Assembly: GCA_022843465.1 (NCBI GenBank) | Contig: JALHNO010000013.1 | Span: forward strand, 98,138-162,137 | DNA: 64,000 nucleotides | Direction: 5' to 3' | Origin: Pseudomonadota bacterium | GTDB taxonomy: Bacteria; Pseudomonadota; Gammaproteobacteria; Xanthomonadales; Ahniellaceae | Part shown: in pieces, positions 33,091 to 55,069 of the stretch | How positions within the stretch are numbered: position 1 is the stretch's first letter | How the letters are laid out: the number at the start of each line of letters is the position of its first letter | Notes under the pieces: generated by a model | Database searches by the model: none | Seen by the model: only the letters and a program-made list of their open reading frames with translations | Told to the model about the DNA's origin: nothing | Position numbers and translations under genes: made by a program

Positions 33091-36000
33091 TCAATCCTGC
33101 GGCGCGATCCGGTTTGCCTTGTAGGGCAGTACCGGCGTCGTGATCCCCCGCGAACCATCGACATGATCATCGACGAACCACGGCTTGCCGTCCTTGTCGA
33201 GGTACAGCCGGCGCATCTCGGACTCGTTCATCGGGCGCGATCCGAGCCGACCGAGCACGGCGATCTGGCCACCAGTTTCGTCGACGGCACGGTCGCGTTC
33301 GAGTGCCCGCGACAGCGCGAGCGCCGGCTTGCGGGTCGGATAGCTGGCGATCAGTTCCGGCTTCGGGTCCGGGCTGTAGCCATAGAACTTCGGCTGTGAA
33401 TCCGGCGAAGTCAGTTGCAGCACCTTGAGTCCATTGGCGCCGTCGGCGACATAGGCAAACAGCGAGGCATTGGTCGAGGCCAGCATGATGTCGCGCGCAT
33501 CATCGAGGGTTCCGCCGGCATTGAATCGCTGATACAGGCTCGGTGCTTCCGGATTGGTGATGTCGATGATCACGATTCCTTCTGCACCGGCGGCGACATA
33601 GGCATAGGTACGGGCGACGTGGAGCTTGTAGGCCGTGGCAATCGGAATCAGCGCATCGGCGACCATGCGCGGGGCGTTGCGATCGGTGACATCGATGACC
33701 TCAAGTCCCCTGGCAGTGGTGACGAAGGCGTAGCGGAACTGCACCTGCACAGCGCGCGGATCATCGAGTGCCAGCTTGGCAACCAGGCGCGGTTTGAGCG
33801 CTTCGCTCATGTCCAGCACCACGACCGCTTGCGGCGTACTCGCATAGAAGGTGTTGCCGGCGATGGCGAGATGGCGGACTCCGTCGAGGACCCCGTTCTC
33901 GTTCCAGGTCAGCGCGCGCTCCAGGTGATTGTTGCGCGGGTCGCCGTCGGACAGTGTGTTCACATCAACCAGAATCAGTCCCTCTTCGGCATCGGTGATG
34001 AAGGCGTAGTTGTAGATGCTGGCGAATGGCTGCTCCTGATTGATGTCGCGGATCAGCTCACCCTGGTTGCGATCCGGATGGATTGGCTGGGTGGTTGGCA
34101 GCACCACGCAGGTCGCATTCTTCGATTCGATGTGGGTGTCCTGGCCGAGTTCAGAGGCGGGTCCGCTGATGATGCGTTGGCCGAAGCCCTTGTTGGCGAT
34201 CGAGGCGATGTCATAGACGCGCATGCCTTTGGCGCCCTCGGCGGTATAGAGGTATTCGCCGCGATGCTGCAGGCATTCCGTGGTGCCACTGCGATGTGCA
34301 TAGCCCTCTGCCAGGCGGCGCTCGGCATCGACATGCTTCTTGTAGCGGTCCGGGTAGGCGTAGCGCTGCAGATAGCTGCCGATCACCGACTGTGGTTCGT
34401 CCCACTCGGTAACGACCACGCCGCTTATTTCGCCATCGCCGCCTATCCAGGCATTGAAGCCGAGGAAATCCGCGTAGCGCGTGCCCTGCAACAGCAACTG
34501 CGCCATGATGGCGTTGTTGTCCTTGCTCTTGGCGAGGTGGCAGTCGGTGCAGGTCTTGGTCTCGCCGCGGCGTTCGGTGTGCGGGTAGTGGGGGGCAAAT
34601 GCCTGCGAGCTGAAGCCGGCCGCCGAGATCGGCGGTTGCTGGATGTAGATGCGCTCCCGGCTGCTGTTGGTCGATGACAGCACCAGGGCCGAACTCGAGC
34701 GAACCGGCGCGTACTTGTTGCCCTTGATCTCACCGTGTATGCCGAGCTGGAACATGTCGTCGCGCGCGACCTGCGGATTGTAGGTCGCAAAGTTGCGCGT
34801 TTCGCCACCCTCATAGTGGTTGCGCTCGGTCTTCCAGTTGGCCTGGATGGGCAGATGGCAACCGCCGCAGCTCGTGGTCCACGAGGTGTGGCAGGTGTAG
34901 CAGGTCATGGTGTCCTCACCGTGCGCCAGCTGGTCCCTGGCGATACCACTGCCGAACTCCAGGGTCTCGGTGTTGCGACTCATCGTGTGCGCGCGTGTCG
35001 CCTTGGCGTTGTAGGCAGGCGCGACGGGGTTGGCGACGTCCTTGAGCAGGGAGAGCTTCCACTCGAGCCCCGGCGTGCCCACCGAACGCTGGATCAGATC
35101 GCCGCCCATCCATTCAAAGCGCTTCTTGCCATCGGGATTGCGCAGCAAGGCCAGTTGCTTGCCCTTGGTCGAGGCAGCCGGTCCACTGGTCGAAAGGGTC
35201 GGGTACTCGCTGGCGGTGCCATGACAGTCCTGGCATTGGATTTCAACGCCTGCCATCACCTCGCCGACGATGTGGCCGTTGCCATGCGCGTCCTGCGCGA
35301 AATGGCAGTCGACGCACTGCATGCCAAGGTCGACATGGATCGAGCTGAGATGCACGGCCTTCTCGAATTTCTTCGGATCTTCATCGGAAACCTGGGCGCC
35401 CTCGGCGTCCAGCAGATTGCCCTTGCGGTCGCGCTTGAACACGGCGCGGAAATTCCAGCCATGACCGTGGTAGTCGGCAAACTGGGTGTCCTTGATGTCC
35501 TCGTTGAGCAGGGCGACATCCTTCAGGAACTTGCGGTCGCCCCAGTTGCCGCGGATCGCGGCCTCTTCCGGATTGTGCTTGTTGATGCGGTGGATTTCCG
35601 AGTCGCTGGGATATTTCTGCTGCTCGGGCCACATCTGCGGCGCCGCGGTTTCGTAGTCCCACATCGTGTAGCCCAGCATCGTATTGATGAACATGTTGGG
35701 TTGATGCATATGGCAGACCATGCACTGGCTGGTCGGGATAGCGCGGGTGAACTCGTGCTTGAGCGGATGCCCGGGTTCGCCCCTGGGGATGGTCGGGTCG
35801 GACTGCTGCGACGTGCCCGTATTGCCGAAGGCGGCATAGCCAGCCGAATGGCGCGGATCGCGGTCATTGGCATAGACGACATGGCAGGAGGTGCATCCCG
35901 AGGAGCGGTAGTCGCCGGGATTGTCATTGGTGCCGAGGAACCAGAGGTGCGGATCGTTCAGCCGCGTCTTGTGAATATTGAGCGCCGGGATGGCGACGCG

Positions 36001-36936
36001 CTGTCCGGTGCCGGGACCACGATTGGACTGCTTGAGGTCGGGGCGGCCGGGCTCTTCGAGGCGCTGGATCAGGCCCAGGGAATTGGGCAACCCGGTTTCC
36101 GGGAAGCTGCTGTTGATATTGCGGCCACCGCGTTCAAACACGCGGAACACATCGGCCGGCGGGATGGTTTCCCATGCAGGTAGCGGGAACAGCTCGGGCA
36201 GGATGCCGTACTTCTGCATTTCCGGTGTCACCGCGATCAGCGCCTTGACCGCATTCGGCTCGGATTCGCGAGTGTAGCTTTCACCGAGGTTGTAGCGCTT
36301 GTAGGGCAGGATACCGTTGTTGTAACTGGCACCGCCCCAGAGCATGGCGCTGGTCGCCATCAGGCTGCGTTCGCTGGCCTGGATGATCTCAAGATGGCAG
36401 CTGCCGCAAGACTCGCGGGCAATCCTGAGATCGCCGGGATTGATGAAGCGTACGAATTCCGGCGCTTCCTTGTTCAGATCGGCAAAGCTGCCCTCGGGAT
36501 TGCGGCTCTGCGGATAATTCCAGTTGGTCGGATAGCGCGGCAGCACGTGGGCCTGCTCCATCGCCGAGAAAATCGGATCAGCAGCATGCCCATCGTGGTC
36601 CTCACCGTGGTGCTCCTCACCATGCGCATCACTGGCGTATTGGACCGCAGTGCGGGCGTGGACCTTTGCACCCCCAGGGCGCATCACGCTGGCATTGCCG
36701 CCATGGCAGTCGGTGCAGCCCAATACCACCGCGCGCGAGGCGTGCATGGTGTGGTTGTCGGTCGGCGTGTGGCAACTGATGCAGCCGCTGCTCTTGGCAT
36801 CGGCCTCGGCCTGCGATTGCGATGCCGGCGCCGGCGGCGCGGTGGTGTAGGTGCGCGCGACGGGTTTTGCTTCTTCGCCCGCCAGGCTGAGCGGAAGACT
36901 GCACAGCACCAGCAGCAACAGGGTCGATCGAATCAT
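33091..36936 (-). CDS. Decaheme cytochrome c fused to an LVIVD beta-propeller
   Basis: This is a 1281-residue exported protein with signal MIRSTLLLLVLCSLPLSLAG. Ten CxxCH haem motifs occupy residues about 52-800 (first CISCH at 52, then CTDCH 74, CGSCH 177, CTSCH 348, CMVCH 405, CVDCH 541, CQDCH 568, CYTCH 679, CGGCH 690, CTDCH 796). Residues about 930-1200 hold six LVIVD-type blades (for example GMRVYDIAS, GLILVDVNTL, GLEVIDVTDRNAP, GIVIIDITNPEAP, GLKVLQLTS). The first part would store or carry electrons in the periplasm or on the cell surface; propellers usually bind partners. The frame runs on upstream to 37059, but ATG 36936 has a good site (CTGGAG). It is the third gene of the 40868-33091 cluster. 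Confidence 0.9.
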   Translation of the reverse strand: MIRSTLLLLVLCSLPLSLAGEEAKPVARTYTTAPPAPASQSQAEADAKSSGCISCHTPTDNHTMHASRAVVLGCTDCHGGNASVMRPGGAKVHARTAVQYASDAHGEEHHGEDHDGHAADPIFSAMEQAHVLPRYPTNWNYPQSRNPEGSFADLNKEAPEFVRFINPGDLRIARESCGSCHLEIIQASERSLMATSAMLWGGASYNNGILPYKRYNLGESYTRESEPNAVKALIAVTPEMQKYGILPELFPLPAWETIPPADVFRVFERGGRNINSSFPETGLPNSLGLIQRLEEPGRPDLKQSNRGPGTGQRVAIPALNIHKTRLNDPHLWFLGTNDNPGDYRSSGCTSCHVVYANDRDPRHSAGYAAFGNTGTSQQSDPTIPRGEPGHPLKHEFTRAIPTSQCMVCHMHQPNMFINTMLGYTMWDYETAAPQMWPEQQKYPSDSEIHRINKHNPEEAAIRGNWGDRKFLKDVALLNEDIKDTQFADYHGHGWNFRAVFKRDRKGNLLDAEGAQVSDEDPKKFEKAVHLSSIHVDLGMQCVDCHFAQDAHGNGHIVGEVMAGVEIQCQDCHGTASEYPTLSTSGPAASTKGKQLALLRNPDGKKRFEWMGGDLIQRSVGTPGLEWKLSLLKDVANPVAPAYNAKATRAHTMSRNTETLEFGSGIARDQLAHGEDTMTCYTCHTSWTTSCGGCHLPIQANWKTERNHYEGGETRNFATYNPQVARDDMFQLGIHGEIKGNKYAPVRSSSALVLSSTNSSRERIYIQQPPISAAGFSSQAFAPHYPHTERRGETKTCTDCHLAKSKDNNAIMAQLLLQGTRYADFLGFNAWIGGDGEISGVVVTEWDEPQSVIGSYLQRYAYPDRYKKHVDAERRLAEGYAHRSGTTECLQHRGEYLYTAEGAKGMRVYDIASIANKGFGQRIISGPASELGQDTHIESKNATCVVLPTTQPIHPDRNQGELIRDINQEQPFASIYNYAFITDAEEGLILVDVNTLSDGDPRNNHLERALTWNENGVLDGVRHLAIAGNTFYASTPQAVVVLDMSEALKPRLVAKLALDDPRAVQVQFRYAFVTTARGLEVIDVTDRNAPRMVADALIPIATAYKLHVARTYAYVAAGAEGIVIIDITNPEAPSLYQRFNAGGTLDDARDIMLASTNASLFAYVADGANGLKVLQLTSPDSQPKFYGYSPDPKPELIASYPTRKPALALSRALERDRAVDETGGQIAVLGRLGSRPMNESEMRRLYLDKDGKPWFVDDHVDGSRGITTPVLPYKANRIAPQD

Positions 36937-37058
36937 CGCAACACTCCAGGAAGCACGAGCGGGCCAGCACGATCCATTCCGGATCGAATCGGGCTGGGCT
37001 GAGCCCATACCCGCAACACAATCAACCGGTTCGGCACCAGGCCGGCCGCGGTCAGCCA

Positions 37059-38861
37059 TCAGTAGGTGAAAATGAAATTACCGAGCACGCTGTAGTAGTT
37101 GTCGTCATCGCCGTAGAGATTCTTCATGCCTTCCCCGGGAAGCAGTACCGCGCCAGACAGGCGCAGCACCGCATTCTGGGTTGCGAACGGGCGCCAGATC
37201 CAGGCAACCGAGGCATCGGTGCCGATATGGCGATCGATCCGGCCCTGGTTGCGGGCGACTTCCAGCACCTCGGTCTGATCGAACCAGAGCTCGTTGATAT
37301 TGGCCGAGATGCGCGACTCCGGCGTGATGTCGAAGTCGGCACCGATGCCGATCAGGCGCAGACCGGGGTTCTCGAAATTGGATTGGCCGAGTTCACGCGA
37401 AGAACGCAGCGACGGCAGCATCGAGTTGCGGCCCGCCAGGGCAACGCCGCCACCGCCGATCAGCGGGACATTCTGGCGAATCCAGTAGCTGGTATCGGCA
37501 CCGGCAAAGATCGGGTTCTCGAAGATGGCGTCGTAGCCCTGCGACTTGTCATCGAACGGATCCTTGTCGCCACTGGCATAGGCAACCGACAGTCGCGTGC
37601 GCACCCAGTCGAAATCGATCGAGCCCTCGGCGGCGACGAAGCCGGCGGAGAGGTCGGAGTCTTCGCCGGTAAAGGTGCCGGTGTTGTTGCCGAACAGATA
37701 GTAGGCGCTGGCGGTGAGGTTGAAACGACCGAAGTGACCGTCGCCGTTGTAGCCGACATAGGTGGCATCGTACTCGCGCGGTGACTCGGTGCCGAGCGAG
37801 GCCGGGCGCGCGATGAAGCCGTTTTCGTCAAAGAAGAAATCGGTGTCGCGGTTGCGGTTGTGGACGATGGTGGCCTGCGAAGTAAACCCGAGGCGTGGCC
37901 AGTCCTGGCGATAGAGGTTGGCGATGATGACATCGTCATCGCGCAGCCCGGCGCCGACATCGTTGAGTCCGGAGTTGGTGTCCTTTTCCAGCCGGCGGAA
38001 CCAGGCGAGATTGTATTGCCAGCGGTTGTTGTCGCGATTGCCGAACAGGCGCACGCCCAGCTGCAGGTCCTGGAACAGGAAGCCACGGAAATCGCTGGAA
38101 AACGGCTGGATGCCGAAACGGATCGCGTCGAAGTCGTAGCGGTCGCCGATATTGCGCAGATGGCGGTCGTAGAACAGTTCCTGCACCGCGACGAAGCCAT
38201 CGTCACGGGTATTGCCCAGCCGCGGGTCGATCTGCAGGATGCGGACATCATCGACATCGACGCGGTTGTAGTTGAAGGCCAGGGTCAGCCGGTACTCGTG
38301 GTCGGGTGGTCGGAAGGTGGTATCGCCCTTGGTGTAGATCAGGCCAGCCAGAAAGGTCTGCGCGAAGATCGTCTGATCGATGCCGGAAAAGATGTCGTTC
38401 TGGTTGGGATCTTCGCTTGAGGTGATGCCGGTCGGCGCCGGGATCGAGCGCGGTTCGGTCACCGTATCGGAGATGCCGACCAGACTGAGAAACCAGTCCT
38501 CGCCATGGATGGGCTTGTCGCCCTTGAAGACGTTCTGGTTGTACGGGTCGTACCAGGGATACTTGAATCCCAGGGTTTCCATGATGCGCCAGCGATCCGG
38601 CACCGGAACAAATTCGCCGATCACATCCGCCGGGGCGGGTTCGATGGCGCCGGGATTGCGATCGGGAAAGTCCGGCCTTGTCGGAGCCGGATGGCCGGGA
38701 CGGCGGCGCGGAATGGCCGATTCCCAGGGATCGTAATTGCCGCCGTACAGCAGGCTGGGCAGGTTCTGCCAGCCGGCAAGTTCGGCATCAATCGGCGTGG
38801 CGCCAGCGCTGCCTGCGAGCAGGCCACTGATGCTGAGTGCAAGCAGGAGACGGCGCGCCAT
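37059..38861 (-). CDS. Outer-membrane beta-barrel protein of unknown function
   Basis: This 600-residue protein has a signal peptide (MARRLLLALSISGLLAGSAGA) and alternating aromatic/polar strands rich in Asn and Asp loops (YRLTLAFNYNRVDVDDV, QYNLAWFRRLEKDTNSG, FNLTASAYYLFGNNTG). It ends in an aromatic residue (LGNFIFTY), the BAM insertion signal. No Cys or haem motif is present. Next to a multihaem cytochrome it could be the porin of a porin-cytochrome conduit like MtrB, or a partner that anchors it. I see no clear MtrB signature (no N-terminal CxxC). Its ATG follows the lipoprotein stop codon directly. Confidence 0.82.
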   Translation of the reverse strand: MARRLLLALSISGLLAGSAGATPIDAELAGWQNLPSLLYGGNYDPWESAIPRRRPGHPAPTRPDFPDRNPGAIEPAPADVIGEFVPVPDRWRIMETLGFKYPWYDPYNQNVFKGDKPIHGEDWFLSLVGISDTVTEPRSIPAPTGITSSEDPNQNDIFSGIDQTIFAQTFLAGLIYTKGDTTFRPPDHEYRLTLAFNYNRVDVDDVRILQIDPRLGNTRDDGFVAVQELFYDRHLRNIGDRYDFDAIRFGIQPFSSDFRGFLFQDLQLGVRLFGNRDNNRWQYNLAWFRRLEKDTNSGLNDVGAGLRDDDVIIANLYRQDWPRLGFTSQATIVHNRNRDTDFFFDENGFIARPASLGTESPREYDATYVGYNGDGHFGRFNLTASAYYLFGNNTGTFTGEDSDLSAGFVAAEGSIDFDWVRTRLSVAYASGDKDPFDDKSQGYDAIFENPIFAGADTSYWIRQNVPLIGGGGVALAGRNSMLPSLRSSRELGQSNFENPGLRLIGIGADFDITPESRISANINELWFDQTEVLEVARNQGRIDRHIGTDASVAWIWRPFATQNAVLRLSGAVLLPGEGMKNLYGDDDNYYSVLGNFIFTY

Positions 38862-40868
38862 TCACTTACCCTCGCAGACGTTCTGTTCGTTCGAATCGAT
38901 GAACGGCGCCTGCGGGCACTGGACATAGCGCAGGCGGGAATTCAGTGGCACCAGTTGATCGGCGCGGATACCAGTGGGCGCATGCCCGAAGCCGGTGTTG
39001 AGCGCAGCGCCGGCGTTGTACAGGCCCAGGAACGCGATCATGTCATCCTGATCGACACCATCCCCGGAGACGCCAACGGCACCGATCAAGGTATTGCCGC
39101 GATAGATCGGAGCGGCACCGGGAAAGATCTGCAAGCCATTGCGCAAACGCGGATTGCGCGTGCAGCCCAGATTGCCGCCCTCGGGACGCAGGGCGAGAAT
39201 GGGCGCTGCATCCGCGCTCAGGTAGGCAACCAGAATCTCCGCGATCTGGTTGAAGGCCAGATCCAGCTGCGCACCATCGCTGAAGGGACTCCACTGCGCG
39301 AAGGGTTTGCTCAATGGCCCATTCGCTGAACCGACAATCCCGTCCGGAAAATACGGACGTGCGATCAGACCAATCGCGCGCGGGGTAAAGGCGGTTGCGC
39401 CGCTCAAGGTGTTCGCGCCGAGGAATCCGGTAGTCGCATTGACATAGTTGCCAAAGTCGATTTCGACACCCGAAGCGGTGCCGTTGCTTGCAAGGTAGCG
39501 TGCATTGGGCAAGGCCGAGAGCTCGGCCGCCGCAAAGCTGCCACTGAAGAAGCTGGCGCTGCGCGCCTTCTGCAGGGATACATCGCTGCCAAAGATGGGC
39601 GCATCACGTGTGCGCGCCAGGGCCAGTACCACTCCATTGCTGTCGACTACGCTGACCGTCACCCGCGCCTGCGATCCGGTCGGCCGTCTGATCTGGGCAC
39701 GGGCGCGGTTGGCTACCGCCAATCCTTCCTGGACGATGCGGCGTGCCTCGGTGGCGCTGAGTGCAGCCAGGCCATCGGTGCCGGCGCGCGGTGCAAATCG
39801 CGGCGCGTTGGCTGCGTCCACCAGAACGAACGCGTCGCTGCCCGGATAGTCACCAGCATCGGCGCGGATCCCCGAGGCAGGTGTGGTGAACGCTGTCCCT
39901 GCCTGCACGGTGCCATTGCTGAACGCAAACAGGCTCAGCAATTGGCCGGTGCTCGCCGGCAGGGTGGCGAAGCCAGGTGCCGATGCTGGCGCCCGCGTCA
40001 GTTCGGCAAAATCCACGTCCGAGAAACGGAATGTCTTGCCATCGGCGGTGATGCGATCGCCACGGCGATCCAGTGGTGCCGCGAAGCCGAAGCTGCCCGC
40101 CATCGCGATCATTTCGTCGGCATTGCGATCGCGATCGCTGATCACCGGATCCAGCCCATAGAGCGGATCGGCGGCAATGCCAATGCCGCCGACGACGGTA
40201 CCGGCCTTGTAGAGCGGAAAGCCACCGGGATCAGCTGACAGGCCCAGTGGCGATGCCTTCGGTCCAACCGTAGTGGCGCTGCCCGCTGGCAGTACGCTGG
40301 CGAGTACCGGCGCTGGCAGCTGGATCAGGTCCGAGCACAGCAACTGTGAAAACTGCACACCGAACAGCGGGCCGCTGGGCGCATTGAACTCGCCCGGATT
40401 GAAATGCTCCTGCACGATCTGACTGGCCGTGCGGGTGGAGAAGGCATTGCCTTCCGAAGACAGGAAGGTGCCGGTGACCGCTTTGGAAATGGCCGCCAGT
40501 TCGCTCGGTACGATCGCGAGTCCCTCGAGGCCACCGGTGACGCCGCGCTCGGATGAGATCGTGACGCTGGTACGCGCGCCAGTCATCCGGTAGACCGCGA
40601 GTACGTTGCCGACATGATCGACAACCGCAATGGTTGCCGGCTGATTCAGGCCGGCCGCTTCGTTCACGGCCTGGGCGATGATCTGCCGCACATCGTCTGC
40701 GCTGAGCAGGGTACTGGCATTGGCGCACTGCCCGCTGCAACCGCTATCGCCAGAACTCGCCGGAGGCGGAGCGGTGCCGGTGGGATCACCCGAATTGCCG
40801 CTGCCGCTGCAGCCAGCCAGCGCGATGCACATTGCCAGCCCCGAAACTGCAACACGGAGGAACACCAT
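38862..40868 (-). CDS. Lipoprotein with two HbpS/GlcG-like (haem-degrading fold) domains
   Basis: This 668-residue protein has a lipobox (AMCIALAGC) and a Gly/Ser/Pro linker. Two HbpS/GlcG repeats follow (about 65-290 and 370-640). In each, an opening helix (DVRQIIAQAVNEAAGLN; EARRIVQEGLAVANRAR) leads to a VVD strand (ATIAVVDHVGNVLAVYRM; TVSVVDSNGVVLALARTRD). Late segments match too (GTVVGGIGIAADP; NTLIGAVGVSGDGVDQDDM). Homologues bind haem or cobalamin outside the cytoplasm. A GGGGAGAAAGGG site precedes the ATG. It leads the operon with the barrel and the decaheme protein, so haem sensing, delivery or assembly is a fair inference. Confidence 0.82.
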   Translation of the reverse strand: MVFLRVAVSGLAMCIALAGCSGSGNSGDPTGTAPPPASSGDSGCSGQCANASTLLSADDVRQIIAQAVNEAAGLNQPATIAVVDHVGNVLAVYRMTGARTSVTISSERGVTGGLEGLAIVPSELAAISKAVTGTFLSSEGNAFSTRTASQIVQEHFNPGEFNAPSGPLFGVQFSQLLCSDLIQLPAPVLASVLPAGSATTVGPKASPLGLSADPGGFPLYKAGTVVGGIGIAADPLYGLDPVISDRDRNADEMIAMAGSFGFAAPLDRRGDRITADGKTFRFSDVDFAELTRAPASAPGFATLPASTGQLLSLFAFSNGTVQAGTAFTTPASGIRADAGDYPGSDAFVLVDAANAPRFAPRAGTDGLAALSATEARRIVQEGLAVANRARAQIRRPTGSQARVTVSVVDSNGVVLALARTRDAPIFGSDVSLQKARSASFFSGSFAAAELSALPNARYLASNGTASGVEIDFGNYVNATTGFLGANTLSGATAFTPRAIGLIARPYFPDGIVGSANGPLSKPFAQWSPFSDGAQLDLAFNQIAEILVAYLSADAAPILALRPEGGNLGCTRNPRLRNGLQIFPGAAPIYRGNTLIGAVGVSGDGVDQDDMIAFLGLYNAGAALNTGFGHAPTGIRADQLVPLNSRLRYVQCPQAPFIDSNEQNVCEGK

Positions 40869-41242
40869 CCCTTTCTCCCCAGACAATCTCGCTTGGAAAA
40901 ATCCCGACAATTCGCCGCCACGTCCCCGCTACCCCGCTCGGGGGCTGCCAGTCACAATAAGTCAGAGTTCTCTCGCTTCCGGACCGGGGCGGCTGGCACC
41001 GCTCCAGACTTGTTCAAAGCATATCTTGGTAGCGGAGTTTATCTCATGGCTGCGCAAGAGGGTGCAGGTAATCTCCGGCAATATTGCCAGGACCCAGGAC
41101 TGAACAAGTCATTGGGGGGGCTCGGCCGCCGGCTTCATTGCAGGCCCGACCTCGCTTTGCCAGTGCGGAACTGATCCAAACCTGCGGTTTGCCCCTGCTG
41201 ACTGAGCAGGCTTTCGCGGTCGCCTACCTACTTCGGGGCTTG
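40869..41242. other. 374-base intergenic region, no gene seen
   Basis: The region lies upstream of the lipoprotein operon (minus strand) and downstream of the zinc-ribbon gene. It must hold the operon promoter, but I cannot identify -10/-35 boxes with confidence. A CCCCG/CGGGG stem occurs near 40927-40946, and a G-tract of eight bases lies near 41114. Confidence 0.4.
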
Positions 41243-41797: not shown

Positions 41798-42128
41798 GGT
41801 CCGACTCCGTCATTCCGGGTTGGCATCGTTGCCGGCTAAATATCGCAGGCTTTGAAGCGGGATGCGATCCGCGGTCTACCATTCCGGGCAGCGCGCCGGC
41901 CCTTGGCTTGCCGGCTCGGGCCGACAGGTCGGCGCCGCGGCAGTGGCTACCGAGGGCGGTGGGACTTTCGTTGAACCAGCCAGCGGCCGCGCCGACCGGG
42001 TTCAGTGAGCTGGCAGGCAGTTCTGACCGATGGCGGATGCGCGGGTGCGCAGCATCGTGGTACATCAGCCGTTTGGTCTTGCCGGGTTGCCTGCGCGACG
42101 ACCGATTTCGCTGACTTCGGAGACTGCG
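41798..42128. other. 331-base divergent intergenic region, no gene seen
   Basis: The region lies between the zinc-ribbon gene (minus) and the metalloprotease gene (plus). I see GC-rich, partly palindromic sequence (GATGCGCGGGTGCGCAGCATC near 42035) but no recognisable promoter, RNA or open frame with domain content. Confidence 0.4.
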
Positions 42129-48188: not shown

Positions 48189-49841
48189 TCAGCGGGCGTC
48201 GCCGGTGTGGAAGCCATGACAGGAAATGCAGGTGCTCGGCACCTTGCCCCTGGCGTGCTCGCCGCCATGGCATTCCCGGCAGTTGTCGATGTCCGGCAGC
48301 AGCAGGTCACTGCTGTCGCTTGAAGTTTCGGCCTGGTGGCAGCTGGCGCAGTTCATGGTGTCGTGTTTGCGATGGCTGAAATCGGAGCGCGGGAACCAGC
48401 TGCCGGCGACTCGAACCGGCTTGACGTTCCAGGCACCGGCTTCATCGCGGAAGCTGGTGTGGCACTCGCTGCAGGCGCGGCCATCGAACAGCCGGTCCAG
48501 AGCTGTTGTCGCCTGGTCGCGTGCCCAGGTCAGCGCTTCGGCGCGCTCCTGCGGCGTGATCGACTGACCCGGCCGACGCCGCGCGCGCACGATGGTCGGC
48601 GCATCGACCTGATCGAATCCGCCCTCCAGTGCCTCGCGCGCGAAGAACTCCTGCACGGCAAAACCGATTTCGGCGACCTTGCCGTGCTGGACCTGGCGAT
48701 CAGCACCGCGTACCGAGAACGTCAGCTGGTGGCAGCGTTGGCAATCGCTTTCGAACTGGATTGGCTGCAGGCGCGCACCGCCTGCTTCCGGGCGGTGACA
48801 GGAAGCGCAGACCAGAGTCTCGTCGCCATCCGGACCTCGGATGCCGGTTGCAGCCAGGTGGGTGTCGTGCGGAAATTTCAGGCCCGAGCCTTCCCTGATG
48901 CCGGGGGTCGACAGTGCGGCGCGTACCGGCGCATACGCACCGCTGCTGTTCCATGCTGGCAGGGTGACCACGAAGCCGGGATGATCCTTGCCGAAATCGG
49001 ACACATCGAGCTGTGCCGGTATGCCATCGCCACGACTGGAAAGGTTCTGATGACAGTCGCTGCATAGCTCCTGATCGGCGCGTACCAGAGCATCGACGCC
49101 GTTGTGATCGCGATGGCAGAAGGCACAGCGACCATCACCGAGCAGGGCAAGGTCGAACTTCGCCGGGTCGGCATGCCCGGGGGTGTTCTGATGACAGCTG
49201 CGGCAACTGGCATCCTGCACCGAAACAAAGCCGCCCAGGTGACAGCTGGTGCATTCCTTGCCGAAGAAATGGTGCGAGGCAGCCAGGCTGCCGGTCTCCC
49301 ATTGCATGCGCGAAGCGATCGGCAGATTGTCGGTCAGTGGGCGCGCGCTCGGCACATAGTGTGCGGCCAGGGGTACGCCGAGCGCCAGCACGAGCACCAG
49401 GATGAACAGTGACCATGATGCCGCACGCTTGCGCAGACCGGCTTCGGTCAGGGTCAGCGTCGGCGCCCGCGCGCGGTCCTGGGCATCGATTTCTGCCTTG
49501 TCGATCTGACTGACTTCGACCGCGGCCTCGAAGTCACGCGGCGGCTCGAGCAGTTGCACGCGGGTGGTGCCGATATCGATCTGGCTGCCCGGCCCGGCCG
49601 TGGTGCTGCTGACTATGCTGCCATTGACGCGGACGCCGGCGGTGATCAGGGATTCGATCCGGTACTGGCCTGGGCCGAGCGCGGTCACCCGTGCATGCGC
49701 CAGCGCGGCGCGCAGATCGGGCAGGAAGATGGCCTGGTCGGCACCACGTCCCAGCGTCAGTACATCGCCGTAGTGGATATCCTCGTCGAACGCGGCGCCA
49801 GAGCGGGCCTGTCGGGTGATTTTGCGGATCAGCCAGCGCAT
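48189..49841 (-). CDS. FHA-like domain, membrane helix and decaheme cytochrome c in one chain
   Basis: This 550-residue protein has an N-terminal FHA-like domain (about 20-100: DVLTLGRGADQAIFL, AHARVTAL, VRVNGSIV). The usual Ser-Arg of SRxH and the Asn of SxNG are missing. One membrane helix (about 142-163) is followed by a periplasmic domain with ten CxxCH motifs (CTSCH, CRSCH, CAFCH, CSDCH, CASCH, CQRCH, CSECH, CASCH, CRECH, CISCH). Cytochrome c3-like spacing suggests a NapC/NrfH-class or small multihaem electron wire. The GGGGAG site precedes ATG 49841. It is the last gene of the 53178-48189 operon, 13 bases after the cytochrome b gene. Confidence 0.87.
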   Translation of the reverse strand: MRWLIRKITRQARSGAAFDEDIHYGDVLTLGRGADQAIFLPDLRAALAHARVTALGPGQYRIESLITAGVRVNGSIVSSTTAGPGSQIDIGTTRVQLLEPPRDFEAAVEVSQIDKAEIDAQDRARAPTLTLTEAGLRKRAASWSLFILVLVLALGVPLAAHYVPSARPLTDNLPIASRMQWETGSLAASHHFFGKECTSCHLGGFVSVQDASCRSCHQNTPGHADPAKFDLALLGDGRCAFCHRDHNGVDALVRADQELCSDCHQNLSSRGDGIPAQLDVSDFGKDHPGFVVTLPAWNSSGAYAPVRAALSTPGIREGSGLKFPHDTHLAATGIRGPDGDETLVCASCHRPEAGGARLQPIQFESDCQRCHQLTFSVRGADRQVQHGKVAEIGFAVQEFFAREALEGGFDQVDAPTIVRARRRPGQSITPQERAEALTWARDQATTALDRLFDGRACSECHTSFRDEAGAWNVKPVRVAGSWFPRSDFSHRKHDTMNCASCHQAETSSDSSDLLLPDIDNCRECHGGEHARGKVPSTCISCHGFHTGDAR

Positions 49842-49854
49842 CGGAACTCCCCGC

Positions 49855-50766
49855 CTACCAGTAGAAGAACACGGAGAAGACGTGCGCGATCAGCGCCGCC
49901 AGCAGCGCGAATGACAGCGGTACATGAAGGTACAGCCAGATTTCCATCAAGGCCTGCAATTGCAGGTCACGACTGAGTCGTCCACTGAGTGACTTCTTGC
50001 GTGCCAGCAGATCCATCAGCTTGCGCAGGTGTTCGTTCTTGTTGTCGGCGCCGGCACTTGCTGCCAGAAAATCGACCATCGCAAACATGGTCGGCATCTC
50101 GCGGGTTGCCTGGCCGCCGCGGCGTTCGGCATCGCGCTTGTCGAGGTAGGCGCGCACCTGGTCCAGCGCTGAATCGGAGTCGTCGCGTGGAAACAGCAGG
50201 GCGCGCACGCCGCCGCCCAGACGGGTGCGCTCGATCGAGCGCAGGATGGTGGCGTGGATCTTGGGATCCACCGCATCGGCGAACTGCAGACTGTTCTGGT
50301 CGATCTCGTGGATCTCGTCGATGATCGCCTGCCGCGAAGCGCTGTCGCGATTGCGTGTCATCAGGCTCGGATAACGCACATAGGCGTAGACCCCGAAAAA
50401 TCCGCTGAAGATCACCACGAACATCAGCACCAGAGTCAGCGTATGGATATTCCAGCCGAGCTGGAATCCGCTGTGCAGCAGGGCGATCAGCAGCAGGGAA
50501 GTTCCGAGATACACATGCGCTGACAGCCAGCCGCGCAGCGTGCCCATGCGGCTGGAATAGCGCCGCTTGCGTATGCCCAGCAGCATCAGCCAGAGAATCA
50601 GGGCGGCGGCGATGCTGCCGAGCGTATAGCCCAGCCAGGTGCCGCCATTGGCGACGCCGATCGGGTCGTGCCAGACATAGGCGGCCACCGAGAGCGCAAT
50701 CAGTAGCAGAGAGATCCAAAGGTAGCGCTGGCGACCGTGGCTGAAAATGGTTTCGTGCATCGACAT
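49855..50766 (-). CDS. Dihaem b-type membrane cytochrome, probable electron carrier across the inner membrane
   Basis: This 303-residue membrane protein has about six helices. Two pairs of histidines with 13 intervening residues, H84/H98 (AHVYLG ... ALLHSGF) and H281/H295 (YLHVPL ... IAHVFS), lie in opposite halves. That is the signature of two bis-His haems b stacked across the membrane. A soluble loop of about 140 residues (NRDSASRQAIIDEIHEID and onwards) separates the pairs and is charged. The gene lies 3 bases after the FAD/FeS gene and 13 bases before the decaheme gene. It would pass electrons between a cytoplasmic FAD/FeS subunit and the periplasmic decaheme subunit. It could also accept from quinol. 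Confidence 0.82.
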   Translation of the reverse strand: MSMHETIFSHGRQRYLWISLLLIALSVAAYVWHDPIGVANGGTWLGYTLGSIAAALILWLMLLGIRKRRYSSRMGTLRGWLSAHVYLGTSLLLIALLHSGFQLGWNIHTLTLVLMFVVIFSGFFGVYAYVRYPSLMTRNRDSASRQAIIDEIHEIDQNSLQFADAVDPKIHATILRSIERTRLGGGVRALLFPRDDSDSALDQVRAYLDKRDAERRGGQATREMPTMFAMVDFLAASAGADNKNEHLRKLMDLLARKKSLSGRLSRDLQLQALMEIWLYLHVPLSFALLAALIAHVFSVFFYW

Positions 50767-50769
50767 GGC

Positions 50770-53178
50770 TCAGCTCCGTGCCTTGGCGTAGGACGGAAAT
50801 TCCTCGGGACCGATTCGGATCGCGGCACCGGTCGGGCAGGAGCGCACGCACGCAGGGCCGCCACTGAGGTCCTTGCACATATCGCACTTCACTGCCTTTT
50901 TCGCTTCGCTGGACTTGGGCTTGCCCGGGTCCTTGGGGGCCTCGCCTGGACCACTGCCGGCGCCGAGCAGAAGCCAGGACAGCAGTCCCGGCTTCTTTGG
51001 CGGCTTGGCGGCCATATGGATGACGCCATACGGACAGTTGCGCTCGCAATTGCCGCAGCCAATGCAGTTGTCGGCGATGAAGACTTCGCCGTTTGGCGCG
51101 CGGTGAATCGCATCGGGCGGACAATCCTTCATGCAGTGCGGATGCTCGCAATGCCGGCACGAAGTCGGCACGTGCACGTTGGCAAAGGTTGGCCCCGCCT
51201 CGCGATCGAGCCGCGAGGTGCCGCCGTGGGTTTCGGCGCAGGCCTTTTCGCAATTGTCGCAACGGACGCACAGGGACTCGTCGATCAACAGAATGTCAGT
51301 GGCCTCGCCGGCACCCTGCGAGATCAGGAACGAAATGATGTCGCCACCGGCCTGCATCTGCTGCATGGACAGATTGGCGGCGGTGCGCTGCGAATATTCC
51401 GATTGCAGACGCAGGCGCAGCATCGGATCGCGCTTGATCAACTGCTTGAACGCCGTGCCATCCAGCCGAATGGTTTCGGTGGCGATCGCTGCGCGCGCGG
51501 TAGCCGAGCGCCGGCTGTCGCCGAGCAGGGCCATCTCGCCCACGTAGTTTCCGGCTGCGACATAGGACAGCACGACTTCCTTGCCGCCGATATTGCGCGA
51601 GATGGTCAGCGAGCCGCGCCGGATCATGTGCAGGCAATCCCCGATCTCTCCTTCGTTGAACACCACATCGCCGGCCTTGAAACGCTCGACGCGCGCGCTG
51701 TCGACCACATCGCGCAGCTTTTCCATGCCCGATTCAGGAGTGAATCGCGACTGGATCGCACGCGCGATGAAGACCTTGTCGATCTCGCGCTTGACCGCCT
51801 CGACCGACTGGATCAGTCGGTTCATCGAGCGCCGTGGCGTCTCGATCAGTACGCAGCCGGGGCCAGCGATCACCGTGGCGGATCGGCGGCGTCCCGATAT
51901 CAACCCCATCTCGCCGAAAAATTCGCCGCGGCCGAGACCGATCTGCTTGTTGGCGGCCTCATCGACGATGACGCGTACTTCACCGTCGACGATGGAGAAG
52001 AAGGTGTTGGTGTAGTCGTTGCGGGCGAATATCGTTTCGCCATTGCGTGGCGTCAGGATCTCGGAATCGAGCAGAAATTCGCGCAACTGCAGCGGCGTGA
52101 TCTGGGCGAGCAGGGGTACCTGTTGCTGCACGCGGGCAATGGCTTCATTGACATTGCGAAATCCCGGCATCGACTGGAATTTCTTTCGCAGCAGGGGTTC
52201 GTCCGCAGGTTCGACATTGCGGCCGAGGATGTACTCGACTACTTCGAAACCCTGGTTCATCGCCTGCTTGATCAGCGGGTAGCCGGCGAGTGCGCCGACG
52301 ATGTAGAGACCGGGTACGTTGGATTCGTAGCGTGGCGAGATCGCCGGGACCGCGGCCGGGTCCTTGTTCGGGAAGGTGACGCCGCAGGCTTCGACGAAGC
52401 CGCGCGGGGCGCTGGCGCCGAGTCGGGCGATCACCCGATCGCAGAGGATCTGGGCGCGTCCGCTCGGCGTCTGCAGATTGATGCGGCCGCGCTTGCGGCC
52501 GACGGACAGCGTCTCGATGCTCTCGGGGCCGGTGTTGTAGTAACACTCGATCTGCTCATCCTCGATCGCCTTGAGGATGTTGCGCAGGTTGCCTTCCTTG
52601 GCGCGGGCAAACTCGTCGCGCCGGTTGACGATGATGACCTGGTTCTGGCGCGCCAGCGCGATGGCATTTTCGATTGCGGCGTCGCCGGCGCCGATTACCA
52701 CAATGGTTTCGCCGGAATAGGCATCGGGATCGTCGAGCTGGTATTGCACGAACGGGAGATCCTCGCCGGGCACGCCGACCTTGCGCAGATTGCCCTGCAG
52801 GCCGATGGCGAGCACCACGCTGTCCGCCTCGAAGCGCGCACCGTTGCTGCAGTCCAGGCTGAAATGGTCGCCGTGTTTCTGGATCCGGGTGACCTCGTGG
52901 CGAAACTTGATCTGGGTGCCAAGCCGGCTGATGCCTGCGTTCCAGGCATCGAGGATGGCTTCACGGGTGCCGGCCTTGAAGGGCAGGGGCGAGCGCAGCG
53001 GCAGGATGCCGGGCTCGTCCATCACATGCTTGCCCTTTTGATACCGGTAAATGGTGTTGGACAGCTGCGCCTCGGCCTCCAGCAGCACGTGCGGGATGCT
53101 CAATTCCGCCGCATGCGCGGCAGCGCTCTTTCCGGCCGGGCCTGAGCCCACGATGGCAATCCTGACGCGTTCCGTCAC
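50770..53178 (-). CDS. FAD/NAD(P) oxidoreductase with two cyclic-nucleotide-binding domains and four-cluster ferredoxin region
   Basis: This 802-residue cytoplasmic protein has in order: an FAD fold (IVGSGPAGKS near 10-17) and NAD(P) fold (VVIGAGDAAIENAI near 160-172) of the thioredoxin-reductase class; CNB domain 1 (about 345-460, GEFFGEMGLISGRRRSATV); CNB domain 2 (about 485-600, VGEMALLGDSRRSATA). A ferredoxin region has sixteen cysteines in four groups (637/640/643/647, 674/677/682/686, 705/708/711/715, 765/768/777/781), as in NrfC/DmsB subunits. It would move electrons from NAD(P)H via FAD to [4Fe-4S] clusters, gated by cNMP or c-di-GMP-like ligands. GTG at 53178 has GGGAG upstream; a TTG at 53220 is the longer alternative. 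Confidence 0.88.
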   Translation of the reverse strand: MTERVRIAIVGSGPAGKSAAAHAAELSIPHVLLEAEAQLSNTIYRYQKGKHVMDEPGILPLRSPLPFKAGTREAILDAWNAGISRLGTQIKFRHEVTRIQKHGDHFSLDCSNGARFEADSVVLAIGLQGNLRKVGVPGEDLPFVQYQLDDPDAYSGETIVVIGAGDAAIENAIALARQNQVIIVNRRDEFARAKEGNLRNILKAIEDEQIECYYNTGPESIETLSVGRKRGRINLQTPSGRAQILCDRVIARLGASAPRGFVEACGVTFPNKDPAAVPAISPRYESNVPGLYIVGALAGYPLIKQAMNQGFEVVEYILGRNVEPADEPLLRKKFQSMPGFRNVNEAIARVQQQVPLLAQITPLQLREFLLDSEILTPRNGETIFARNDYTNTFFSIVDGEVRVIVDEAANKQIGLGRGEFFGEMGLISGRRRSATVIAGPGCVLIETPRRSMNRLIQSVEAVKREIDKVFIARAIQSRFTPESGMEKLRDVVDSARVERFKAGDVVFNEGEIGDCLHMIRRGSLTISRNIGGKEVVLSYVAAGNYVGEMALLGDSRRSATARAAIATETIRLDGTAFKQLIKRDPMLRLRLQSEYSQRTAANLSMQQMQAGGDIISFLISQGAGEATDILLIDESLCVRCDNCEKACAETHGGTSRLDREAGPTFANVHVPTSCRHCEHPHCMKDCPPDAIHRAPNGEVFIADNCIGCGNCERNCPYGVIHMAAKPPKKPGLLSWLLLGAGSGPGEAPKDPGKPKSSEAKKAVKCDMCKDLSGGPACVRSCPTGAAIRIGPEEFPSYAKARS

Positions 53179-53245
53179 GCATTGACTCCCGTTTGAGGCT
53201 GCGATGATAGCCCCGATCAAGGCCCAGCAAGCGTTTTCACCACAG

Positions 53246-53365: not shown

Positions 53366-55069
53366 ATGAGTTCGGTCTATCAGAGACTCGCCGAGGGCTT
53401 TCCGGAACGTCACGCGCCGGCGCGTGGCTCGATCCATTCCGAACCCAAGGGCCTGATCGACTGGGTGCAGGGACTGCCCCTCGCCAATGGCCTGTCCGCG
53501 GCGCGCATGTTGCTGCAGGCGGTCCGCGAAATGAACGCGGTCAAGATTGACGGTCAGCAGCGACTGGCCGGACTGGAAGCACTGCGTTCACCGGTGGCCC
53601 AGATGGTCGCGCAGGCGGATCGGCAGGTGGTGGGTTCGAGTTTTCCGCTGCCGCAATCGAAACAGCAGCTCGGCATCCAGTCGCGGGATTTTCATGAGGC
53701 GATGGCGCTCGGCTACCGCATGGCGGCATTCGAGCTCTGCCTGCCTGAGGGCAGGATTCCGTTTCTGAAAGGCAAGCAGGTCGCCACCGCGCTGCAGCGC
53801 GCCATCAGCCATCATGGCGAGCAGTTGTTGCGGGGATACCTGCTCTATGCCGCACCGCAGCCTGGTGTCTGGCAACACTTGCACGATCTCTACCGCTTTG
53901 CCGATATGGTCGGTGTCCACGAGAAATCGATCGACGAGCCCTTGCTGGGCAAGCTGGCATTCTCGCCGAAAGAGGCCTACGCCCATGTTGTACTGTTCGC
54001 ACTGAGCAATCCCTACCGGCTGTCGCAGCGCGAGATGATCGATGGTTTTGAACTCACCCGGATCTGGTCACCGATGTTCAAGGTCGGCAACGAGGCCAGC
54101 GGCGCCGATATCGGGATCTCGCTCGAGCAGGACCAGGGTCCTGGCTACGTACCTGAGGAACGTGATGCTGGAATTCCGCCCACGCTCAGCTTTGATACCA
54201 ATGATGTACTGCGTTCGATTGAGCGTGACCTCGCGGTCACCGGGCCGGCGCAGGGAAACATCAGCTTCCGACTGAAGGGCGGCAATCCGGTCAATGTCAG
54301 CCCCGACTTCGTGCTGCGGCTGTCGACGAGCTGGAAACCTTCCCCGGACCGCAACCATGCGCGCCTGCCTGCCGGTCACTATCTCGATACCCTGATCGGG
54401 CTGCATGGCATCCACTATCATCTGGCCGGCGGCACCGACTTCGAGCAGTTTGTCCGCGATGTGCGTGGGCCCGGTATCAGCATGACCGAGCGTGACAAGA
54501 GCGCCTCGTGGATGAACACGACCCTGGTTGATGCGGTAAAGCCGGCCGCGCTGCGTTCGCTGGTTCTCGACCAGAGTCTGGGCGGCTATCGTCTGGAATG
54601 GGGTCTGGAAAGCGGTGCCAAGGCCCGGATCGGTGAGCTGGTTGGTCTGGCCGCGGTGGGTGATGACCAGGACGACGAGCGTGAATGGATGATCGGGGTC
54701 ATCCGCTGGCTGCGCTTCAACAATGACGGAAGGGTACAGGCGGGTATCGAATTATTGGCGCGCGAGGCTTATGCTGCCGCCGTGCGCGCTGCGGATACCG
54801 GCGGGCACTTTCGTGCCCCGGTGCGGGCGATCGAGTTGCAGCCCATGCGTAACAACAGTTCCAGCCAGTTGAGCATCCTGACCCCAAGTGTGGTCGATCG
54901 CGGCATGTCGCAGATCGAAGTCTCGCGCGCCGCCGACATGTGGAGTGCCAGTCGCGATGCCAGCGTCCGTGTGCTCAGCGATCTTGATGTCATCGAGAAC
55001 ACCGGCGCCTATATCCGTCTGGTCGCCAAGCCAGGCTATGACGCCGATTTCGCGGCGGCGGCAGCATGA
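53366..55069 (+). CDS. Large protein with PilZ-like C-terminal segment, unknown
   Basis: This 567-residue soluble protein has no signal or membrane helix. A C-terminal segment (about 395-475) is beta-rich and contains [13 protein letters not shown], which fits the D-x-S-x-x-G half of the PilZ c-di-GMP motif, and later [16 protein letters not shown] cannot see a convincing R-x3-R partner. The N-terminal part (about 30-230) is helical. Large PilZ-domain effectors such as FimW in Pseudomonas have comparable size, but the relation is only a suggestion. The gene overlaps ispG by 4 bases and so is transcribed with it. Confidence 0.6.

Follow-up and report, generated by a model that had tools for sequence, protein, structure and literature searches.

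A probable PCC4-like trans-envelope electron pathway with a predicted cyclic-nucleotide switch in an Ahniellaceae bacterium

Introduction

The PCC3 and PCC4 gene clusters described by He et al. in 2017 (PMC5566968) encode an inner-membrane protein that is reported to have five helices, an SGXXG motif and two WX3HX13H motifs. In PCC4 clusters this protein is accompanied by a porin and by cytochromes with 4, 5 and 10 haems, and in a second subgroup a pfam13247 gene precedes it (PMC5566968). The model put forward there for both clusters is quinone-linked, the motif being compared with that of quinone-active cytochromes b, and the terms 'cyclic nucleotide', 'FAD' and 'FHA' do not occur in the main text of that paper (PMC5566968). 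PCC4 and its kin are named yet uncharacterised. Here, we analyse a 64,000-nucleotide stretch (hereafter the window) of contig JALHNO010000013.1 from a gammaproteobacterium of the Ahniellaceae, in which three adjoining genes encode a flavin and iron-sulfur reductase with cyclic-nucleotide-binding (CNB) domains (RED), a dihaem cytochrome b (CYB) and a decahaem cytochrome with an FHA-like domain (DEC). We conclude that they probably form part of a PCC4-like trans-envelope electron pathway, which would consist of two operons and an unlinked tetrahaem cytochrome and would be switched by cyclic nucleotides.

Results

The three core genes follow one another on the same strand with intergenic gaps of 3 and 13 bases (Table 1), and in this, as in their domains, they are as an initial annotation of the window had described them. 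To compare them across genomes, we used as our main set the best 80 of at least 542 stretches that matched a RED profile in a scan of one genome per species; since these loci were picked by their likeness to RED, co-occurrence counts made on them describe a non-random sample. Together with 22 loci from a survey of further genomes they make up a set of 102, from whose counts ten PCC3-like loci (L071-L080) are excluded. L054 and L100 lie on one contig, L056 and L057 in one genome, and many fetched loci stop at contig ends, so that genes beyond these are unseen.

Where both partners were found, CYB lay within 600 bp downstream of RED in 80/84 loci and DEC within 600 bp downstream of CYB in 80/81, which bears out the reading of the three genes as one operon. 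Three further genes, HBP, POR and LVI, recur behind them: by the same measure, DEC was followed by HBP in 56/69 loci, HBP by POR in 60/63 and POR by LVI in 58/58, and HBP stood behind DEC in 58 of the 76 loci that extend at least 2.5 kb beyond DEC. Loci of alpha- and gammaproteobacteria repeatedly show the order RED-CYB-DEC-HBP-POR-LVI, those of betaproteobacteria the order DEC-HBP-POR-LVI-TET-RED, in which TET is a tetrahaem cytochrome gene. Scored by tblastn in the best 80 loci, RED was present in 80, DEC in 67, CYB in 65, HBP in 57, POR in 55, LVI in 53 and TET in 26; across the 102 loci the counts were 100 for RED, 88 for DEC, 87 for CYB, 71 for HBP, 67 for POR and 63 for LVI.

All 14 genomes whose locus showed RED without CYB, or was cut off at DEC, carry CYB. 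Solitary homologues were considered and rejected as an explanation for loci with RED alone (L107 and L116), as both genomes have CYB elsewhere; the co-occurrence that the initial annotation had proposed as a check is found, with the three genes kept together and seemingly solitary RED genomes possessing CYB. Samples less biased than this set gave a CYB match at E <= 1e-5 in 46 of 274 genomes drawn from the class, and for 15 of these, the window genome among them, the match was strong (E <= 2e-58); DEC was matched in 10 of 299 genomes of the phylum, a count that likewise includes the window genome. At 53366-55069 (+) the window also holds a 567-amino-acid open reading frame (ORF), divergent from RED, for which Pfam gave nothing up to E 0.1; L076 has a similar one.

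Table 1. Window features assigned to the pathway
Feature	Position	Strand	Basis and remarks
RED, reductase with FAD (YpdA-like), tandem CNB and four [4Fe-4S], 802 aa	50770..53178	-	Pfam, structure-profile match, alignment
RED FAD/NAD(P) part	52285..53172	-	residues 3-298 match bacillithiol disulfide reductase Bdr/YpdA, chain 7a7b; without CXXC
RED CNB1	51805..52044	-	phosphate-binding Glu423 and Arg432 in 98/98 sequences
RED CNB2	51427..51687	-	Glu548 and Arg557 both in 95/98 sequences
RED cluster cysteines, 16 for four [4Fe-4S]	50836..51270	-	all in 98/98 sequences; HycB3 (7qv7) match
CYB, dihaem cytochrome b with two WX3HX13H and SGxxG, 303 aa	49855..50766	-	alignment; signature of the PCC3/PCC4 inner-membrane protein as described in PMC5566968
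DEC, FHA-like domain, one transmembrane segment and ten c haems, 550 aa	48189..49841	-	Pfam, motif count
DEC FHA-like domain, predicted cytoplasmic, degenerate phosphothreonine site	49569..49757	-	Pfam, 23.4 bits against cut-off 20.7
DEC ten CXXCH, predicted periplasmic	48216..49253	-	motif count
HBP, lipoprotein (signal ...IALAGC) with HbpS-like stretches (PF03928)	38862..40868	-	first gene of second half
POR, signal peptide, ~18-stranded beta barrel, AlgE/OprD-like fold	37059..38861	-	AlphaFold and fold search
LVI, signal peptide, ten CXXCH, C-terminal LVIVD repeats; remote ExtM kin	33091..36936	-	motif, NCBIfam

RED starts at a GTG at 53178, within an ORF that opens further out at a TTG at 53220. 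Above their Pfam cut-offs it contains Pyr_redox, two cNMP_binding stretches and 4Fe-4S families, among them PF13247 (41.4 bits against a cut-off of 26.2), and by its place directly upstream of CYB it corresponds to the pfam13247 gene of PCC4 subgroup II. The match to a solved structure places its flavin part in the YpdA/Bdr fold family, although the NCBIfam YpdA model scores below its cut-off (111.2 against 339.9 bits). The FAD and NAD(P) glycines are kept in 98/98 sequences, and a plain thioredoxin reductase was rejected as an identity for RED, given that none of the 98 has a CXXC at the expected place. Arg186 (97/98) and Arg192 (94/98) match the HRRxxxR site of thioredoxin reductase, which makes NADPH a more likely hydride donor than NADH. 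The CNB pair matches, by profile comparison with solved structures, the tandem regulatory parts of PKA and PKG, and 95/98 sequences retain the Glu and the Arg in each of the two phosphate-binding motifs. The cluster cysteines stand in four groups of four, in a region (residues 632-802) that matches HycB3.

In CYB, which has the length (~300 residues) and the motifs of the PCC4 inner-membrane protein, the signature reads W80-H84-H98, SGFFG and W277-H281-H295. Both WX3HX13H motifs are present in 81/81 CYB sequences, SGxxG strictly in 79/81 and as [ST]GxxG in 81/81, and the haem ligand pairs H84/H98 and H281/H295, each with 13 residues between, are invariant in 22 aligned sequences. The initial annotation had known of no named system with this combination of genes; the inner core is to be placed with PCC4, a type of cluster that received its name in 2017 (PMC5566968). 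Known families otherwise say little about CYB: only cytochrome b561 (PF01292) was matched, below threshold (23.2 against 30.1 bits), the FRD domain of ferric reductases and NADPH oxidases (PF01794) was absent from the Pfam results to E 0.1, where one further row was at chance level, and a search of solved structures returned only chance-like coiled coils. Two genomes from the same genus encode RED and CYB in a single ORF of 1,118-1,123 amino acids (L064:3052-6423 and L065:5350-8706), and this fusion argues that the two proteins work in one complex. A comparable gene of Oceanospirillum beijerinckii, annotated as one Fe-S and inner-membrane protein and split in a figure of He et al., may be the same real fusion (PMC5566968).

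The resemblance to PCC4 brings with it the model proposed for that cluster, in which an extracellular donor such as Fe(II) would feed electrons through the outer module and DEC to CYB, which would reduce quinone, leaving RED as a side branch. CYB does bear the motif that He et al. compared with quinone-active cytochromes b (PMC5566968). We nevertheless consider this conduit improbable, as RED is fused to CYB in the two genomes just described and accompanies it in all 14 genomes with incomplete loci, and a gene for an NAD(P)H-type flavoprotein is present in both PCC4-type loci that we examined (see Discussion). Inward flow to NADP+ would, moreover, oppose both redox and membrane potential. In 8 of the 10 PCC3-like loci an FeS/FAD protein is 30-34% identical to RED, which suggests NAD(P)H over quinone as the partner there too.

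DEC has one hydrophobic segment (residues 138-166), directly after the residues RKR. By the positive-inside rule, and because c haems are attached in the periplasm, its FHA-like domain would be cytoplasmic and its haems periplasmic. Ten CXXCH motifs were counted in 78/81 DEC sequences, nine in two and seven in one. Domains and ligands thus support the complete path that the initial annotation had drawn, from NAD(P)H through FAD, four [4Fe-4S] clusters and two b haems to ten c haems. Its reading of the FHA domain as a sensor fares less well. At the residues that we take to bind phosphothreonine, Arg is found in 76/81 sequences and Ser in just 4/81, and the Asn position of the NG pair is Ala, Ser or Gly in 61/81; a canonical phosphothreonine sensor was rejected on these grounds, and with the site mostly lost a docking role is likelier for the domain than sensing. 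A real phospho-switch, by which a Ser/Thr kinase would control DEC, is very doubtful for the same reason, even though in one locus (L058:1-3398) DEC is immediately followed, on its own strand, by PP2C phosphatase and Ser/Thr kinase genes, and the cyclase beside DEC in L052 ends in what appears by eye to be an FHA domain. Among the 102 loci a PP2C gene occurs in 1 and a kinase in 4, and chance neighbours come easily in a genome such as that of the window, with its 37 matches to Ser/Thr kinase domains, a high number for a proteobacterium.

The three genes make up only half of a system that is widespread and built of modules. The initial annotation was right in the genes it described and incomplete in their extent: it missed an outer-membrane module, HBP-POR-LVI, at 33091-40868, on the same strand as the core and about 7.3 kb beyond DEC, as well as the unlinked TET. 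The intervening 7.3 kb holds unrelated genes, including one for a glycosyltransferase and one for a reprolysin-like metallopeptidase with weak PKD-like matches (42030-44921, +), and no trace of a mobile element emerged from the repeats between the two halves. The HBP ORF opens at a TTG at 40910. TET was found in 16 of the 17 core genomes searched, in the window genome on another contig (47% identity), and it stands directly beside LVI at six places in five genomes (G112 twice, G009, G205, G256 and G167); we treat it, on this distribution, as a seventh part of the system. CcmF, for c-haem maturation, is encoded in the window genome.

The AlphaFold model of POR (mean pLDDT 82) has about 18 strands, and its best fold match was AlgE (Z 28.9, 365 residues, 3.1 Å), followed by OprD-family porins and maltoporin, with AlgE and OprD matches at Z 23-29. 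MtrB, whose barrel has 26 strands, was not among the 50 matches listed, which does not exclude a likeness to it. POR thus looks, in the model, like a substrate-specific diffusion porin. LVI is 61-67% identical between distant members, and its nearest NCBIfam model is ExtM, at 58.6 bits (80.7 in L123), far under the cut-off of 800; its repeat region is weakly similar to choice-of-anchor proteins, it lacks a lipobox, and a search of solved structures gave no match.

These features bear on where the electrons would go. A periplasmic reductase acting on a soluble substrate admitted by POR (an oxyanion, a metal chelate or a small organic molecule), as supposed for Geobacter Ext, is a tentative reading to which we give a little less than an even chance; it is favoured by the porin-like fold of POR and by the rank of ExtM among the NCBIfam models, and loss of the porin ExtI is described as impairing selenite and tellurite reduction in Geobacter (PMC5877670). 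Against it speaks the ExtM score, so far below its cut-off. True extracellular electron transfer, in which POR would keep the cytochromes spanning the outer membrane and an external LVI would reduce minerals or an electrode, seems rather unlikely to us. The porin gene does adjoin those of multihaem cytochromes, and LVI has a signal peptide and the weak likeness to choice-of-anchor proteins, but the strand number and the AlgE/OprD matches of POR, and the missing lipobox of LVI, speak against it. The barrel fits a periplasmic reductase at least as well as an exit of electrons from the cell, and since POR looks like a diffusion porin we lean slightly towards LVI acting in the periplasm.

The outer half appears to be exchangeable. 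Six of the 102 loci (L050, L105, L110, L113, L122 and L125) join a core of the window type to a pentahaem cytochrome, another barrel and TET, and both outer modules occur together in none of the 102. Among 34 core genomes, LVI was matched in 19 (one a fragment, one weak at 33%), a pentahaem protein of at least 65% identity in 8, and both in none; a pentahaem-like protein at 36-37% is found in the LVI genomes G155 and G174, and in G028, which has no LVI match. On a RED tree of 98 rows, built by a quick method and with ten labels assigned by hand from genome-level matches, the eight pentahaem-type rows need three changes, Solimonas terrae for instance falling inside a group of Nevskiaceae that have the other type. 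Core and LVI are separated in G558 (Tahibacter aquaticus), G560, G474 and G174, and also, by a smaller distance, in the window. By sequence comparison, then, outer modules are swapped on one inner core. Six metagenome contigs titled Klebsiella pneumoniae or Bordetella parapertussis (L110, L128, L136, L138, L152 and L156) group on the tree with environmental beta- and gammaproteobacterial rows; their titles look wrong.

Neighbouring genes, which were called by a simple longest-ORF script, link the core with cyclic nucleotides. In 6 of 22 genomes (G005, G028, G038, G112, G167 and G519) a class III cyclase domain is encoded no more than 10 kb from the core, at distances judged by eye against the core coordinates, where 0.62 would be expected from the cyclase numbers of these genomes (P = 1.6e-5, uncorrected for kinship). 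In ten of the 102 loci the neighbours are a cyclase, a TPR-barrel protein and a FecR-like protein, and the cyclases of L056 and L070 combine CHASE2 with a catalytic domain. Phosphodiesterase-like genes of the calcineurin type occur in 4 of the 102 loci, in three of them (L066, L067 and L069) behind DEC and in the fourth (L070) beside the cyclase; that of L067 scores best with SpdA (140 bits, under the cut-off of 400). Together with the intact sites of RED, the cyclase neighbours make cyclic-nucleotide control well supported, with binding itself predicted, and the sensor role assigned to the CNB domains by the initial annotation is strengthened accordingly. In L052, a cyclase gene convergent with DEC (L052:402-1382) encodes an adenylate/guanylate cyclase domain that runs by eye into an FHA-like stretch. 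Glutamate dehydrogenase genes, presumably of an NADP type by our guess at the coenzyme, lie near the core in 8 of the 102 loci.

Discussion

We propose that RED takes hydride from NAD(P)H onto FAD in the cytoplasm and would pass single electrons along its four [4Fe-4S] clusters to CYB, where two stacked b haems would carry them outward as in NADPH oxidases and ferric reductases. From its anchor in the inner membrane, DEC would use its FHA-like domain, predicted to be cytoplasmic, to dock the reductase and would collect the electrons on its ten periplasmic c haems, handing them to an exchangeable outer module, here POR, HBP, TET and LVI, in which LVI would be the terminal reductase, located either in the periplasm or on the cell surface. 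Thermodynamics and the resemblance to NADPH oxidase are our grounds for an outward direction. Binding of cyclic AMP or cyclic GMP to the two CNB domains of RED would switch the NADPH drain on or off. In its most specific form, a second-messenger-gated drain of NADPH in which the nucleotide opens or closes flow into swappable outer multihaem reductases, the proposal is a possibility that we hold with some reserve. We know of no report of direct control of trans-envelope electron flow by a cyclic-nucleotide ligand, and our literature searches found no paper joining cyclic nucleotides with such electron transfer.

Several observations weigh against this scheme. A cyclase within 10 kb is absent in 16 of the 22 genomes, and the P value given above ignores shared ancestry; in the window none stands beside the cluster, with two elsewhere. 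In some genomes LVI is unlinked or was not seen, its AlphaFold model has a mean pLDDT of 46, with the repeat part confident and the haem part not modelled, and a pore of about 18 strands is unlike a sleeve for a cytochrome wire. The FHA-like region is missing from one DEC sequence of the 81, that of L051. Finally, CYB may act on quinone, the role that He et al. proposed for related proteins (PMC5566968).

Three points become testable: whether these cytochromes are served by NAD(P)H or quinone, whether cyclic nucleotides gate them, and whether terminal reductases are exchanged on a common core. As the system occurs in cultured aerobes (for example Tahibacter, Dokdonella, Solimonas and Alcanivorax), this can be done at the bench, and with at least 542 matching stretches the lineage is commoner than named genomes would suggest.

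Among described systems, several share single traits with the window. PCC3 has the same inner-membrane motifs, but the cytochromes of the PCC3-like loci, where complete, carry 18 to 77 haem motifs. The Geobacter ExtH-S clusters, as described in PMC5877670, share a porin, multihaem cytochromes and a cytochrome b, and LVI is remotely ExtM-like; the cytochrome b is a different one, however, a Rieske protein is present and a CNB reductase is not. NADPH oxidases and ferric reductases likewise place NAD(P)H and FAD on one side of the membrane and two b haems with HX13H pairs across it, whereas CYB is without the Pfam FRD domain and Fe-S clusters lie between flavin and haems. The MtrAB conduit sheathes a decahaem cytochrome in a large barrel; POR is modelled as AlgE-like with about 18 strands, and MtrB does not appear among its listed matches, an absence that excludes nothing.

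The closest relative is PCC4, with which the window shares an inner-membrane protein with two WX3HX13H and SGxxG, a decahaem cytochrome, a tetrahaem cytochrome and a porin (PMC5566968). A pentahaem bait matched 2 of 398 genomes of the phylum at E <= 1e-40, and the two loci, L165 and L166, are, judged from their gene content, probably PCC4 and fit its two published subgroups. L165 has genes in opposed directions and no Fe-S gene, with a Fer2/FAD/NAD reductase, TET, the inner-membrane protein and 10 haems. In L166 the order is pentahaem protein, barrel, FAD/NAD/Fer2 reductase, TET, CNB and 4Fe-4S protein, inner-membrane protein and multihaem protein; the CNB-FeS protein is 26% like RED, the inner-membrane protein, with both motifs, 25% like CYB, and the multihaem protein, in which 8 haem motifs are seen before the fetched stretch ends, 26% like DEC. 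Both loci pair their core homologues with a separate NAD(P)H/FAD/2Fe-2S reductase gene, so the flavin module differs while the NAD(P)H input would stay. No such FAD_binding_6/NAD_binding_1/Fer2 gene lies at 48-53 kb of the window, where RED instead has its YpdA-like FAD domain fused to the CNB-FeS part. In place of cytochromes with 4, 5 and 10 haems the window has two with 10 each and its tetrahaem gene unlinked, and a search of its genome for a pentahaem protein gave no match. DEC has its FHA-like domain where the L166 decahaem protein starts with a cysteine-rich stretch and has no FHA match, the window porin has no BLAST similarity to the PCC4-type porin, and HBP and LVI are extra. From these sequence comparisons the window system is a sister form or divergent relative of PCC4, sharing its CNB-FeS/cytochrome b/decahaem core and differing in the flavin module, in the predicted cytoplasmic head of the decahaem protein and in the outer module.

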